This document shows, one piece after another, positions 14,063 to 56,116 of a stretch of DNA of 64,000 nt. Location: positions 496,001 to 560,000 of the forward strand of contig NZ_CP023860.1 in assembly GCF_003326015.1 (NCBI RefSeq), written 5' to 3'. How positions within the stretch are numbered: the stretch's first letter is position 1; every line of letters starts with the position of its first letter. Source of the DNA: Candidatus Thioglobus sp. NP1. Its GTDB lineage: Bacteria > Pseudomonadota > Gammaproteobacteria > PS1 > Pseudothioglobaceae. The translations under genes were made by a program, and so were the position numbers. The notes below the pieces were generated by a model that saw nothing but the letters and a program-made list of their open reading frames with translations, ran no database searches and was not told the DNA's origin.

Positions 14063-14137
14063 TACTAATTCTTTGCAATATAGTAATTTTAGCAGTGCAT
14101 AAAAATTAACTTAGATTAATTTATTATTTTTAGGATG

Positions 14138-14312
14138 GGGTCCATTGTGCCGTGTTGACATGGTCCTGAACCTTTCTGGTTCAAGGCGGAAGTTCGATGT
14201 TTACCGTAGGTTTCCCACTTCAAGGCAGGCTTACACAAAAGTAACCAATCTCATCTCCTTTTTCTATACTTAATCGGCTCAGGGAAATAAATCAATCACG
14301 AACACAACAGAT
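14138..14312 (-). ncRNA. ssrS: 6S RNA
   Basis: A regulator that binds sigma70 RNA polymerase by mimicking an open promoter. Read leftward, the segment carries CCTGAGCCGAT (complement at 14273-14283) and CGCCTTGAACC followed by GGTTCA (about 14167-14193), both characteristic of gammaproteobacterial 6S RNA. The ends pair: bases at 14297-14307 (TTGTGTTCGTG on this strand) match CACGGCACAA at 14145-14154, closing the terminal stem. The length of about 175 nt fits E. coli's 183. The position just upstream of ygfA agrees. Exact ends are estimated. In the rest of the 415-bp gap (14063-14477) I see only AT-rich sequence with the marC leader. Confidence 0.88.
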
Positions 14313-14477
14313 AATTTAATTATCACATTAACTCTTATTAATTGCAATGAACTTTTATCTTTTATATAAAGAATTTGAGTTTTAATTTAATAAACTGATT
14401 CATATTTCTTACAAATTTCAAAGACATAACTCATATAAAATACAAACCTTATTTTTTTGATTAATAGGCTTTAAATA

Positions 14478-25757: not shown

Positions 25758-26255
25758 TTAAAGCTTCTGTGATTGTTTTTCAGCTTTCTTTTTTAGGCGC
25801 TTCTGTTTAAGTTTGGATAAATGATCAACAAATAAGATGCCCATTAAATGGTCCATCTCATGTTGAATACAAACTGCTAACATTTCATTAGCTTCTATCT
25901 CAAACGAAACTCCTTTTTCATTAAGAGCACGCACTTTAATCTCATTAGCTCTTTTAACATTTTCATAATAATTTGGTACTGAAAGACAACCCTCTTCATA
26001 TTCAATTTCACCACTCTTCTCGATAATTTCAGGGTTAATTAGACACAGAGGTTGATCACAATCATCTGAAACATCAATAACAATAATGCGTTGATGAAAG
26101 TTTACTTGGGTTGCAGCAAGACCAATACCAGGAGCTGCATACATCGTTTCAAACATATCTTTTACTAGCTGTTTTATATCCCCATTAACAGCTTCAACTT
26201 CTTTTGCAACAGTCCTTAACTTTTTATTAGGGTATTTTAAAATATCTAAAATCAT
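25758..26255 (-). CDS. def: Peptide deformylase
   Basis: Removes the formyl group from nascent N-terminal methionine. The three family motifs are present in order: GIGLAATQ (about 45-52), EGCLSVP (about 89-95) and QHEMDHLMG (about 130-138), with the metal ligands Cys and two His. The length of 165 residues is standard. Its start overlaps the nadB stop by 4 bp. The usual partner fmt is not adjacent. Confidence 0.97.
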
Positions 26256-27811
26256 GAGTTAATAATAACAGTGTTATAAATTTTATCGTCCTTGTCAGGG
26301 TAATCCTGATTAAAGTGTAAACCTCTACTTTCCTTTCTAGAAAGAGCAGATTCTACAATAATTTTAGATGTTTGGACTAAGTTTCTTAATTCAATCATGT
26401 CATCTGTTACAGTATAAAGACGGTAATACTCATCCACTTCTTTGTTAATTTGCTCAATTCTAAAATAAGCTGATTTCAGACGGCTATCACTTCTAACTAT
26501 GCCTACAAAGTTCCACATAATGCGCCTTATTTCTTGCCACAAATGAGTAATAACTACTTTCTCTTTAGAAGGCTCCACCCTGGAGGAGTCCCAATCATCA
26601 ACTTTTTGATAGGACCTATTTAAGAGGTTCTCGTTAATATGTTTCGCACACGATTGTGCAAAAACAATACACTCAAGTAATGAATTACTTGCCATTCTAT
26701 TTGCCCCATGAACCCCAGTATGAGCTACTTCCCCAACTGCGTATAAATTATTGATATTGGATTGAGCATCGATATCTGTATTTATTCCCCCACACGTATA
26801 ATGAGCAGCTGGAACAACTGGAATAGCTTTATTACAGATATCTATACCCAATTCTTTACAGCGATTTGTGATTGTAGGAAAGCGATCTGAGATCCATTTA
26901 GAATCTTTGAATGAAATATCAAGATAGACACAATCATATCCATGAATTTTCATTTCATTATCTATTGCTCTAGCAACAATATCTCTTGGAGCAAGCTCAA
27001 GTCGTTCATCATAGTTATGCATAAATTCCTCACCATTTGGCAGAGTAAGTTTTGCACCCTCACCCCTAAGAGTTTCAGATATCAAGAATGACTTCGCATT
27101 AGGGTGGAAAAGACAAGTTGGATGAAATTGAGTAAACTCCATATTTGTTATTTCACAGCCAGCCCGATATGCCATTGCAATTCCATCTCCAGTTGATGTG
27201 TCTGGATTAGAGGTATAAAGATACGACTTTGACGCACCACCAGTTGCTATGATTGTATTATGAGAAATAAATGGAATTACTTTTTTTGTTTTCTTATGAA
27301 AAACATACGCACCATTACATTTGCTATTACTAATAAGAAGATCAACAGCTAAATGTTGATCAAAAATTGTAATATTTTTCTTGTTTTTAGCTGTAGCAAA
27401 AAGATTAATTTGAATTGATTGACCAGTCTTGTCTGAAACATGTGCTACTCTCTTGGAGCTATGACCACCCTCAGTAGTCAGATCATAATTACTTCCTTTA
27501 TGAGAAAACTCTACACCTATTTTTTCAAGCTCTATGATTGCTGATGGCGCTTGTTCAACCATAAACCTTATACTGTCCTTATTACCTAGATTAAATCCTG
27601 TATTTAGTGTATCGGAGATATGTGAATTAAAATTATCCTCAGGATCCAATACTGCAGATATTCCACCTTGCGCATAGAATGATGAGCCTTCTAATATTTC
27701 ATCCTTAGAGATCACTGCAACTGATAGAGAATCTGAAAGCTGAATTGCACTCATTAAACCAGCACTTCCAGAACCAATAATAAGAACATCAAACTGGTAT
27801 TTATTCATCAT
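26252..27811 (-). CDS. nadB: L-aspartate oxidase
   Basis: An FAD enzyme that converts aspartate to iminoaspartate for NAD synthesis. The FAD motif [15 protein letters not shown] opens the protein, and [19 protein letters not shown] and [17 protein letters not shown] are conserved flavoprotein-succinate-dehydrogenase family blocks; the [12 protein letters not shown] segment separates NadB from SdhA. The length of 519 residues is close to E. coli's 540. Two ATGs (27811, 27808) are possible starts. nadA and nadC are not adjacent. Confidence 0.95.
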
Positions 27812-27866
27812 AATTAAGTGTCACAAAAAGTTACATAAAGAAAGATTATTACTATTATTTTTTGTA

Positions 27867-27962
27867 TATAATTTCACGCAAGTTAAAACCTACTATATTT
27901 AACTTATTTCTCCTTTAAATAGTAGACTAACCCCACACTCTTATTCGAGGTGGGGTTTTTTA
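27867..27962 (+). ncRNA. Candidate small RNA with anti-Shine-Dalgarno loop
   Basis: Between two leftward genes lies a complete rightward transcription unit. A perfect TATAAT at 27867-27872 predicts a start near 27879, though no good -35 box is visible. A hairpin pairs CTACTAT (27890-27896) with ATAGTAG (27919-27925), exposing a pyrimidine loop with TTTCTCCTTT (27907-27916), complementary to AAAGGAG-type Shine-Dalgarno sequences. A strong terminator follows. The RNA would be about 85 nt with no reading frame. No known family is recognised. The alternative is an orphan terminator left by gene loss. Confidence 0.4.
27929..27962 (+). terminator. Rho-independent terminator, rightward
   Basis: AACCCCAC pairs with GTGGGGTT, extended by CTC/GAG after a one-base bulge, with a loop of TTATTC, then a run of six T on the + strand (27956-27961). 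The T-run is only on the + strand, yet no rightward protein gene precedes it. The leftward RND gene's stop codon overlaps the T-run. Confidence 0.85.
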
Positions 27963-30248
27963 TTTTATAAGCTTTATATTATTCATCTTTGGCTTGAAAA
28001 TAATTAATAATTTAGGGAGTAATGTTAAGTTCACTAATACTGCACTAAGCATAGCAACAGTCATAAAGATTCCAAAATAGATACTTGGTATAAAGCTTGA
28101 TAGTATTAAAACTAAAAATCCTATAGCAACTGTTATTGCTGTATAAAAAATTGCAAGGCCAATGGAGGCATGAGCTCGATACATTGACATAAGATAGTCA
28201 TCATCCTTAGTTAATTCGTCTTGAAATCGATTAATGTAGTGAATAGCATTATCAATTCCAATTCCAATTGCAATTGCTGCAATAGTAATTGTCATAATAT
28301 CAAGAGGTATTTTGAATAAGCCCATAATTCCCAAAATTATAAGTGATGGAATAGTATTTGATAAAACGGCTATAAGAGCTATTGAAGCCGATTTAAAAAT
28401 TAACATAAACATGATGAAAATAATAACAAAGACACTAGCAATTGTTTTAATTTGGGAATTGAATAGACTCTGAAGAAGGTTGTTATATAGGGAAAATGAT
28501 CCTGTAAAGCGAAAACTCTCTGGACTAAAGTTGAATTCTTCAACTAACTTTTTATTGATGGTATTAATTAATTTATTTCTATCTAATCCATCGGTTGTTT
28601 CTTTGACGCGCGCAACAAAACGTATTTGGTCAGTTTCATCGGATATGTGTGGAACAAGAACTTGAGATTTTGCAAATTCTGGCATATTATTTTTACCTAA
28701 GACAAGTAAAAAGCCATTTGGTGCTTTACCTTCATTAGAAGTTTTGAGAACCTGCATAAATGTATCAATTGATAAAACTTTTCCTAAGCTATCGAGGCTA
28801 TTCAAATATTTATGAACTTCATGAAACTCTTCCCTTAAGCCCTCATCTGCCCAGTATGCGTTAGCAACATTATCAAAAACAATATCTAGGGGGACAGTTC
28901 CACCTAGCTCTTCATCAATTAGCTTGAGTCCTTGATGAATTTCTGTAGATTTTTTAAAATAATTTATAAAGCTATTCTCAACGGAAAGTTTACTGATTCC
29001 AAAAACAGAAATGCAGATAATTATTACTAGAGAGATTAGTATGCTTTTTCCAAATTTATCAGTTATAAATGCAAGATTTTGAACACCTAAGATGTGATCA
29101 TTATGATTTATAATTTTTGGTTTGGGTAATATTGCCATCATAACTGCAAAAAGCATAAAAGATAAAATAAGAGCAATTGATATACCGATACTCATCATTA
29201 AACCAAAGTCAATTACTGGCTGAACATTGCTAAAAGTTAGTGAAATAAAAGCAGCAATTGTAGTTATTGTTGTAAAGGTGCATGGTTTAATCATTTGTTC
29301 TAGGGTTTCCCTAGTAAGGTCATTGGTTTTTTTATCTGGATTATTTTTAGATAATTCTCTAAAGCGAACTACTAAATGAATTGTGACTGAAAGAGTCATT
29401 ACAAGAAGCAGTGAAAAAAAGTTAGCAGAAATAACTGTAACCTTCCAACCAATAGCGCTAATTAATCCAGTCATGAATAAAGCCCCAGTAACACTAATCA
29501 TAATTGGTAATAAAACCCAACGAATTTTTCGGAAAATTAATGTAAGTATCATTGACATTGCTAAAACAACAGCAAGACTAAATATTACTAAATCACTTTT
29601 AATATATGAAATAGCATCATTTCTTATCATGGGAATTCCACCTAAGAAAAGCGTAGCATCATTACGATATTCATCCATTGTCGAGCGAATATCAAAAATC
29701 ATTTTTTTTAATATTTCATCATCAATTATTACCGTTGGGTCATTAGCACTCAGTGGAATCAATAAAGCAGTTGTTTTTAGATCCTTACTAATTAAGTTGC
29801 TTGCGTATAAAGGACTAGTTTTAAACTCATTCTCAATATAATCTAAATCAGCCTTACCATTATCTATTGTGTATACATCACTTGCCAACTCAATTAGAGA
29901 AAGAGGTGGTGATTGAAATAAAGATACATCAAGTAAAGAAATTACAGAGTCTACTCCATTAATTTCAAGCAGCTTATCTCTAAAAGATCTCAAGTTAATG
30001 AGTTGCTCTGGCTCAATTAAGCTATTCTCAGAAGTATAGCTAATTAAGAGTGATTCATCAGAGCCAAATGTTTTCTGTGTATCTAAATAGAGTTCCAGAT
30101 TATTATCTCCATCCAATGACAAGGACTCAGATGAAGCATCAAGAGAAAAGTTCTGTATCTGGAGTAGTGATGAACCTATAACTAATATTAAAAAAGACAA
30201 AGACCATATTGGTCTCTTAATTAATAGGTTTATAAGTTGAGAAAACAT
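27960..30248 (-). CDS. RND/MMPL-family exporter-like membrane protein
   Basis: An inner-membrane protein of 762 residues with the two-fold RND architecture: a first membrane helix at about 13-30, a large periplasmic loop, a block of helices near 225-390 with a GLMMSIGISIALILSF region, a second periplasmic loop and a second block from about 600 to 755 (AIGIGIDNAIHYINRFQDEL). It belongs to the predicted exporters of the RND superfamily (MMPL type, single-subunit), not to the AcrB drug pumps, which are about 1,000 residues. Lipid or hopanoid cargo is known for relatives; substrate here is unknown. It lies 15 bp downstream of the pcm-like gene. Confidence 0.85.
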   Translation of the reverse strand: MFSQLINLLIKRPIWSLSFLILVIGSSLLQIQNFSLDASSESLSLDGDNNLELYLDTQKTFGSDESLLISYTSENSLIEPEQLINLRSFRDKLLEINGVDSVISLLDVSLFQSPPLSLIELASDVYTIDNGKADLDYIENEFKTSPLYASNLISKDLKTTALLIPLSANDPTVIIDDEILKKMIFDIRSTMDEYRNDATLFLGGIPMIRNDAISYIKSDLVIFSLAVVLAMSMILTLIFRKIRWVLLPIMISVTGALFMTGLISAIGWKVTVISANFFSLLLVMTLSVTIHLVVRFRELSKNNPDKKTNDLTRETLEQMIKPCTFTTITTIAAFISLTFSNVQPVIDFGLMMSIGISIALILSFMLFAVMMAILPKPKIINHNDHILGVQNLAFITDKFGKSILISLVIIICISVFGISKLSVENSFINYFKKSTEIHQGLKLIDEELGGTVPLDIVFDNVANAYWADEGLREEFHEVHKYLNSLDSLGKVLSIDTFMQVLKTSNEGKAPNGFLLVLGKNNMPEFAKSQVLVPHISDETDQIRFVARVKETTDGLDRNKLINTINKKLVEEFNFSPESFRFTGSFSLYNNLLQSLFNSQIKTIASVFVIIFIMFMLIFKSASIALIAVLSNTIPSLIILGIMGLFKIPLDIMTITIAAIAIGIGIDNAIHYINRFQDELTKDDDYLMSMYRAHASIGLAIFYTAITVAIGFLVLILSSFIPSIYFGIFMTVAMLSAVLVNLTLLPKLLIIFKPKMNNIKLIK

Positions 30249-55680: not shown

Positions 55681-55707
55681 TTTAAAAACCCAGCGCTGAG
55701 GCTGGGT
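55681..55707 (-). terminator. Rho-independent terminator of the cold-shock gene
   Basis: On the minus strand ACCCAGC pairs with GCTGGGT around a 6-base loop, followed by a T-run (complement of the A-run at 55684-55688). It lies 22 bp beyond the cold-shock protein stop. The 244-bp gap from here to sbcB (55485-55728) is otherwise AT-rich, with a second weaker inverted repeat (AAACTG...CAGTTT, about 55626-55667). Confidence 0.85.
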
Positions 55708-55728
55708 CTTAATAAAATAATTCTAAAA

Positions 55729-55935
55729 CTATTTTGGAACTACGTTAGCCGCTTGCGGGCCTTTAGCACCATCTTCAAGTTCGAATTCTACTTCTTGACC
55801 TTCTTCTAATGATTTGTAACCATCACCTTGAATAGCTCTGAAGTGAACAAAAACATCATCTCCACTTTCTTGTTCAATAAAACCAAAACCTTTTTTTGCG
55901 TCAAACCATTTGACGCGTCCTGTTGTTGTCGACAT
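55729..55935 (-). CDS. Cold-shock domain protein
   Basis: A 68-residue CspA-family RNA chaperone that melts mRNA secondary structure. The OB-fold has RNP1 KGFGFI and RNP2 VFVHF motifs and the opening [11 protein letters not shown]. The ATG at 55935 is set by AGGAG eight bases upstream; the nine upstream codons in the same frame are not conserved. The leader from about 56060 is long (more than 100 nt), as in temperature-sensing csp mRNAs. Member identity (CspA, CspD or CspE) is undecided. Confidence 0.95.
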
Positions 55936-56116
55936 GCAGTCTCCTAAAAAAAAATAAAACATGGAAAAGATGCAACTAACCTAAATTACTGTGAAACCGT
56001 CCTACTATGAAGCAACAACACAACAACAAATCAGCTGAATTTTAACCAGCAAGCCAATTTTAACCTAAATATATAAGAAAGTAGGTTTATTTAAGGATTA
56101 CTCTTATTGAGTAAAC

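Follow-up and report, generated by a model that had tools for sequence, protein, structure and literature searches.

Positions 27878-27962 on the plus strand of the window (the whole 64,000-nucleotide stretch of Candidatus Thioglobus sp. NP1 DNA analyzed here) probably encode an independently transcribed, trans-acting regulatory small RNA (sRNA), which would function free of Hfq and ProQ and repress mainly the mRNAs of solute-binding proteins. The gene and its anti-Shine-Dalgarno (anti-SD) segment are well supported by sequence comparison, whereas its expression, its folding into a pseudoknot and its repression of a particular set of genes are inferred. The locus is organized into the following elements.

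26252-27811, minus strand: nadB (L-aspartate oxidase), the left neighbor, reading away from the sRNA; open reading frame with Pfam FAD_binding_2 and Succ_DH_flav_C domains
27867-27872, plus strand: -10 element TATAAT, read directly from the sequence and conserved among homologs
27878-27962, plus strand: predicted sRNA gene of about 85 nt, delimited by a conservation island, promoter and terminator
27880-27887, plus strand: 5′ arm of stem S1, AAGUUAAA, pairing with 27898-27905
27890-27896, plus strand: 5′ arm of stem S2, CUACUAU, within the S1 loop and complementary to 27919-27925
27898-27905, plus strand: 3′ arm of S1, UUUAACUU, forming an 8-bp stem with the 5′ arm
27907-27916, plus strand: anti-SD segment UUUCUCCUUU, exposed and unpaired in most folds; it forms loop L3 in the pseudoknot model
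27919-27925, plus strand: 3′ arm of S2, AUAGUAG, with TAGTAG invariant in the genus
27929-27961, plus strand: intrinsic terminator AACCCCAC...GTGGGGTT with T6, in which seven pairs have changed on both sides
27960-30248, minus strand: MMPL/RND-type exporter gene; open reading frame with a Pfam MMPL domain

Both flanking genes point leftward, nadB starting from 27811 and the exporter gene ending in a stop codon (27960-27962) that abuts the sRNA terminator. As the initial annotation had stated, the rightward TATAAT is present, and a strong terminator lies downstream, with a GC-rich stem at 27929-27957 and a T-run at 27956-27961; the U-run follows the stem on the plus strand only, the reverse strand being without one. 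Its statement that no rightward protein gene lies behind this terminator also holds, and no rightward open reading frame accounting for it was found in the transcript region. A small protein encoded by the sRNA was considered and rejected, as the transcript contains neither ATG nor TTG and its sole GTG is inside the terminator. Across the homolog alignment the -10 element reads TATAAT or TATAAC, and the distant homologs L051-L053 have TGTTATAAT at this position. The -35 region is poor, and a simple promoter scan returned no site employing the TATAAT at 27867-27872. The predicted 5′ end of the sRNA was placed from the -10 element and the onset of conservation. The fold is stronger than that of dinucleotide shuffles (z -4.57, with 1 of 200 as good), most of the excess being due to the terminator. 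Between nadB and the sRNA promoter, at about 27822-27838 of the window, there is also a palindrome-like TGTnAC-AAAAA-GTnACA. The main clade retains it in varying form, L017-L020 do not, and it may be where a regulator of nadB or of the sRNA binds.

Congeners carry the segment at 81-95% identity in a DNA search. A covariance model was built from these matches and then used to search the family genomes, a check that had been proposed together with the candidate. It finds the sRNA in 20 of the 29 genomes of the genus (E ≤ 2.5e-15); beyond the genus, two more genera of the family have much-diverged homologs (E 5e-8, 5e-7 and 1e-5). Lack of a transcript together with a lack of loop conservation in relatives had been named as grounds for discarding the candidate; the anti-SD segment is retained, with slight changes, in all 23 homologs. 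Compared with 19 congeners, 27880-27961 is conserved at an identity of 0.925 and the -10 region at 0.91. The corresponding value is 0.62 for both the left spacer and the 5′ end of nadB, and 0.72 for the 3′ end of the MMPL gene. This conservation island has the borders of the predicted transcript, and because it stands out so sharply from its flanks, it settles that the elements did not originate by chance.

The carriers are of the SUP05/PS1 type, for example Ca. Pseudothioglobus aerophilus and Ca. Thioglobus perditus, and the location beside the MMPL gene, in the MMPL-nadB gap, is constant across three genera. A scan of 84,980 species genomes with the core pattern returned 16 family members and two Bacteroidetes matches, the latter most likely due to chance. 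No further match was found in 369 genomes of the class, and no homolog in viral contigs. The sRNA is single copy in the whole genome; the sole other match (E 0.145), considered as a second copy, proved to be an unrelated terminator at L061. An Rfam search with the sRNA gave nothing at gathering score and sub-threshold matches only, so that by this measure it is a previously uncatalogued gene that matches no Rfam family. Elsewhere in the window, 6S RNA lies at 14135-14316 on the minus strand (95.8 bits against RF00013). The leader of the cspA cold-shock thermoregulator (RF01766) is matched at 55682-55984, also on the minus strand, scoring 96.5 bits where the cut-off is 78, here in a marine gammaproteobacterium.

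Several congeners and most other genera lack the sRNA, which is therefore not essential to the family. In G015:C9 (L093) it is cleanly missing from the syntenic junction, between two TTTTAT repeats. In G008, G022 and G028 (L094, L092 and L095, respectively) it is absent, def directly follows the MMPL gene, and nadB is not adjacent. The clean loss in G015 would fit a locus consisting only of a terminator plus a cryptic promoter whose RNA lacks regulatory function. This explanation is very improbable, as conservation covers the entire transcript including its loops, beyond what a promoter and a terminator would need, and no rightward gene requires a terminator here.

The structure appears to be more elaborate than the hairpin exposing an anti-SD loop that was originally described. 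The sequence claimed for that loop, TTTCTCCTTT, is indeed present at 27907-27916, and so is the CUACUAU/AUAGUAG stem; the overlapping S1 stem was missed, however, leaving the single-hairpin picture incomplete. Over the 21 distinct sequences compared, the model helices are paired in 97.9% of cells. Nine of 25 pairs have changed on both sides, compared with 2.4 in shuffles and 1-2 in slid controls; seven of the nine belong to the terminator and two to S1. In S1, 97% of cells are paired, and an A-U to G-C change is seen in L019. S2 is paired in 98% of cells and nearly invariant, with no pair changed on both sides, so that covariation speaks neither for nor against this stem. Shuffling one sequence yields a loop-tail complement of this length in 88 of 20000 cases, and the most divergent homolog (L053, of the g32 genus) keeps only part of the complement, which weakens S2. 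When only nested folds are considered, the minimum-energy structure is the S1 hairpin in some homologs and the S2 hairpin in others, with energies between about -4 and -7 kcal/mol. A nested-only model that chooses one hairpin was rejected, the two being close energetic rivals across homologs, and alternation between them is thus a possible behavior of the RNA. The 5′ part of the sRNA therefore fits either an H-type pseudoknot, whose first loop would be short and whose long loop would be the anti-SD segment, or two alternative hairpins. In both cases the structure probably differs from a single hairpin.

The anti-SD segment itself varies within narrow limits. UCUC is invariant in all homologs, some of which have UCUCC, others UCUCUCC or UCUCCUCC. 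A weak UCU/AGA stem touches part of the segment in some homologs, and the CUCC core is largely unpaired in every structural version. A predicted transcription unit of its own and a conserved, unpaired segment complementary to the Shine-Dalgarno sequence would together place this RNA in the anti-SD class.

The same conservation bears on a cis-acting alternative, in which a single leftward operon comprises MMPL and nadB, and the RNA, read rightward, pairs perfectly with the spacer between them, uncoupling the two genes through RNase III cleavage or transcriptional interference. The sRNA is always within the MMPL-nadB gap, and in the other sampled genera where the two genes are adjacent, the gap spans a few tens of bases, is operon-like and holds no such gene. 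However, perfect pairing requires no conserved sequence, yet the sRNA is more conserved than both of its coding flanks and displays compensatory changes along with an invariant anti-SD core. The start site of nadB is, moreover, a poor target for L3 (-3.4 kcal/mol). The cis-antisense explanation is unlikely, and both it and a functionless RNA are disfavored because structure and anti-SD segment are deeply conserved.

Action in trans on other mRNAs is the preferred reading, and a mechanism can be proposed. The 5′ part would fold so as to leave UUUCUCCUUU single-stranded, either as the H-type pseudoknot of S1 and S2 or as two exchanging hairpins, while the terminator would close the 3′ end. The exposed segment would then pair with mRNAs bearing a strong AAAGGAGAAA(UAA) ribosome-binding site. 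This pairing is predicted to block ribosome entry and repress translation at AAAGGAGA-type sites. The main predicted targets are periplasmic solute-binding proteins of ABC and TRAP transporters for organic nutrients (glycine-betaine, polyamine, amino acid, NMT1 and Bmp types), and some genes of one-carbon and nitrogen metabolism may be added to them.

These targets emerged from a reading of the whole genome, in which the exposed segment was matched to 1675 start regions and each was given a score. A simple script called the start codons; it misplaced a few (that of nadB, for example), which adds noise with no obvious class bias. Pairing with ribosome-binding sites had been anticipated, with rpsP as an example. 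Solute-binding protein genes rank best, whereas rpsP is a weak candidate: its site AAAAGGAGCAAA reaches -10.5 kcal/mol and rank 262 of 1675, which is unremarkable. The longest uninterrupted complements of L3 at start sites (16, 14 and 14 nt) all precede solute-binding proteins (Pfam OpuAC, NMT1 and SBP_bac_8), and many more follow. Of 1672 genes, the top 30 include eight to nine of the 25 organic solute-binding protein genes (P 3e-9 and 9e-11). GGAG occurs at 24 of these 25 genes and at 302 of 1647 others (18%). Complementarity extends beyond GGAG, with 7.5 of 13 positions in solute-binding protein genes versus 5.1 in other GGAG genes (P 8e-8). The real order of the sRNA flanks beats 1998 of 2000 shuffled flanks, and two of 2000 do as well. 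In a second genome, of which 760 kb were compared, most target orthologs also rank high; the zinc-type binding protein does not.

An important caveat comes from relatives that lack the sRNA, which amount to a natural experiment. The strong GGAGA-type ribosome-binding site is common to 24 of the 25 organic-nutrient binding proteins independently of whether the sRNA is present, and the site AAAGGAGAAAUA-AUG precedes the same binding-protein genes in sRNA-less congeners, including G015 and G022, where the absence was seen directly at the locus. The density of solute-binding-protein ribosome-binding sites is about 1.45/Mb in congeners without the sRNA versus 1.06/Mb in those with it. Co-evolution of target sites with the sRNA is not supported, as such sites are no less numerous in congeners that lack it. 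It thus seems that these strong ribosome-binding sites already existed as a class which the sRNA matches and did not visibly shape. Since these congeners keep the sites, the complementarity may only reflect that highly expressed genes have strong ribosome-binding sites.

Of the 83 family genomes, 82 have no member of the Hfq family, whereas the positive control finds Hfq in E. coli; the single match (G081, L150) may be contamination. ProQ was not found in this genome. The sRNA must therefore act without either protein. The lack of these two also weighs against the idea that the RNA, instead of pairing with mRNAs, acts through the ribosome or a protein, either imitating the 3′ end of 16S rRNA or serving as decoy or sponge of an RNA-binding protein. 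Such a role would suit the compact conserved structure and the terminator loop UCUUAUUCGA, which is invariant in the genus. It would also suit the CUCCUCCUUUA carried by homologs of the g5 genus, which is very close to the 16S rRNA 3′ end. With no candidate protein at hand and anti-SD variation that preserves complementarity to GGAG sites, a decoy is quite unlikely.

Repression by mRNA pairing, the favored reading, would carry weight beyond this locus. Free-living bacteria of the SUP05/PS1 clade are abundant in the ocean, and the family appears to have lost Hfq; a self-structured, conserved anti-SD sRNA would offer a concrete, testable case of RNA regulation in streamlined cells. If true, it would tie post-transcriptional control directly to how these cells take up polyamines, osmolytes and organic nitrogen, and provide an example of an sRNA functioning without a chaperone. 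A bolder version, which we regard as doubtful, holds that the long loop of the pseudoknot presents the anti-SD segment, dispenses with a chaperone and globally tunes the synthesis of nutrient-binding proteins in these Hfq-less streamlined ocean bacteria.

Several known sRNAs share parts of this design. The NmsRa/NmsRb pair of Neisseria (RcoF2/RcoF1, NgncR_162/163; RF02877) has the same order of parts: a 5′ stem-loop, a single-stranded anti-SD UUUCUCCU, a 3′ strand containing UAGACU and a terminator. Its anti-SD segments repress TCA-cycle mRNAs (PMC5362039). The RF02877 model aligns with the sRNA from end to end at 19.8 bits (E 0.46), versus a gathering score of 52, and it was not found in the six loci carrying other, divergent homologs. 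NmsR RNAs are tandem siblings between dsbB and lrp with two UC-rich anti-SD segments, whereas the sRNA here is a single gene between MMPL and nadB with one UCUCC, in a host that differs in having neither Hfq nor ProQ.

Burkholderia double-hairpin RNAs, or Betaproteobacteria toxic small RNAs (RF02278; ncS27 and others), carry a CU-rich segment complementary to ribosome-binding sites (PMC5688073), placed directly before the terminator as it is here. RF02278 scores 21-24 bits with the sRNA, below its cut-off of 50. That family has a two-hairpin layout and three to five dispersed copies; it is without an upstream S1 stem, in contrast to the single-copy sRNA with its extra conserved S1.

In alphaproteobacteria, the UCCUCCC anti-SD loop of AbcR1/AbcR2 represses mRNAs of ABC-transporter periplasmic-binding proteins (PMC3712013), the very class of targets predicted here. 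The AbcR RNAs are Hfq-dependent, tandem and built of three hairpins, whereas the present genome has no Hfq gene and the segment has another sequence, UUUCUCCUUU; AbcR was not among the matches of the Rfam search with the sRNA. The Xanthomonas sX13 RNA is Hfq-independent and acts through C-rich unpaired motifs on G-rich sites near translation starts (PMC3771888). It resembles the sRNA in its chaperone independence and differs in having three stable stems with CCCC loops, a location near polA and a different sequence. By analogy, the sRNA would work like NmsR, AbcR and sX13; homology with them is not claimed. Functionally it belongs to the known class of anti-SD sRNAs, in which it constitutes a new family; should presentation of the anti-SD segment by a pseudoknot be confirmed, it would count as a distinct variant of that class.
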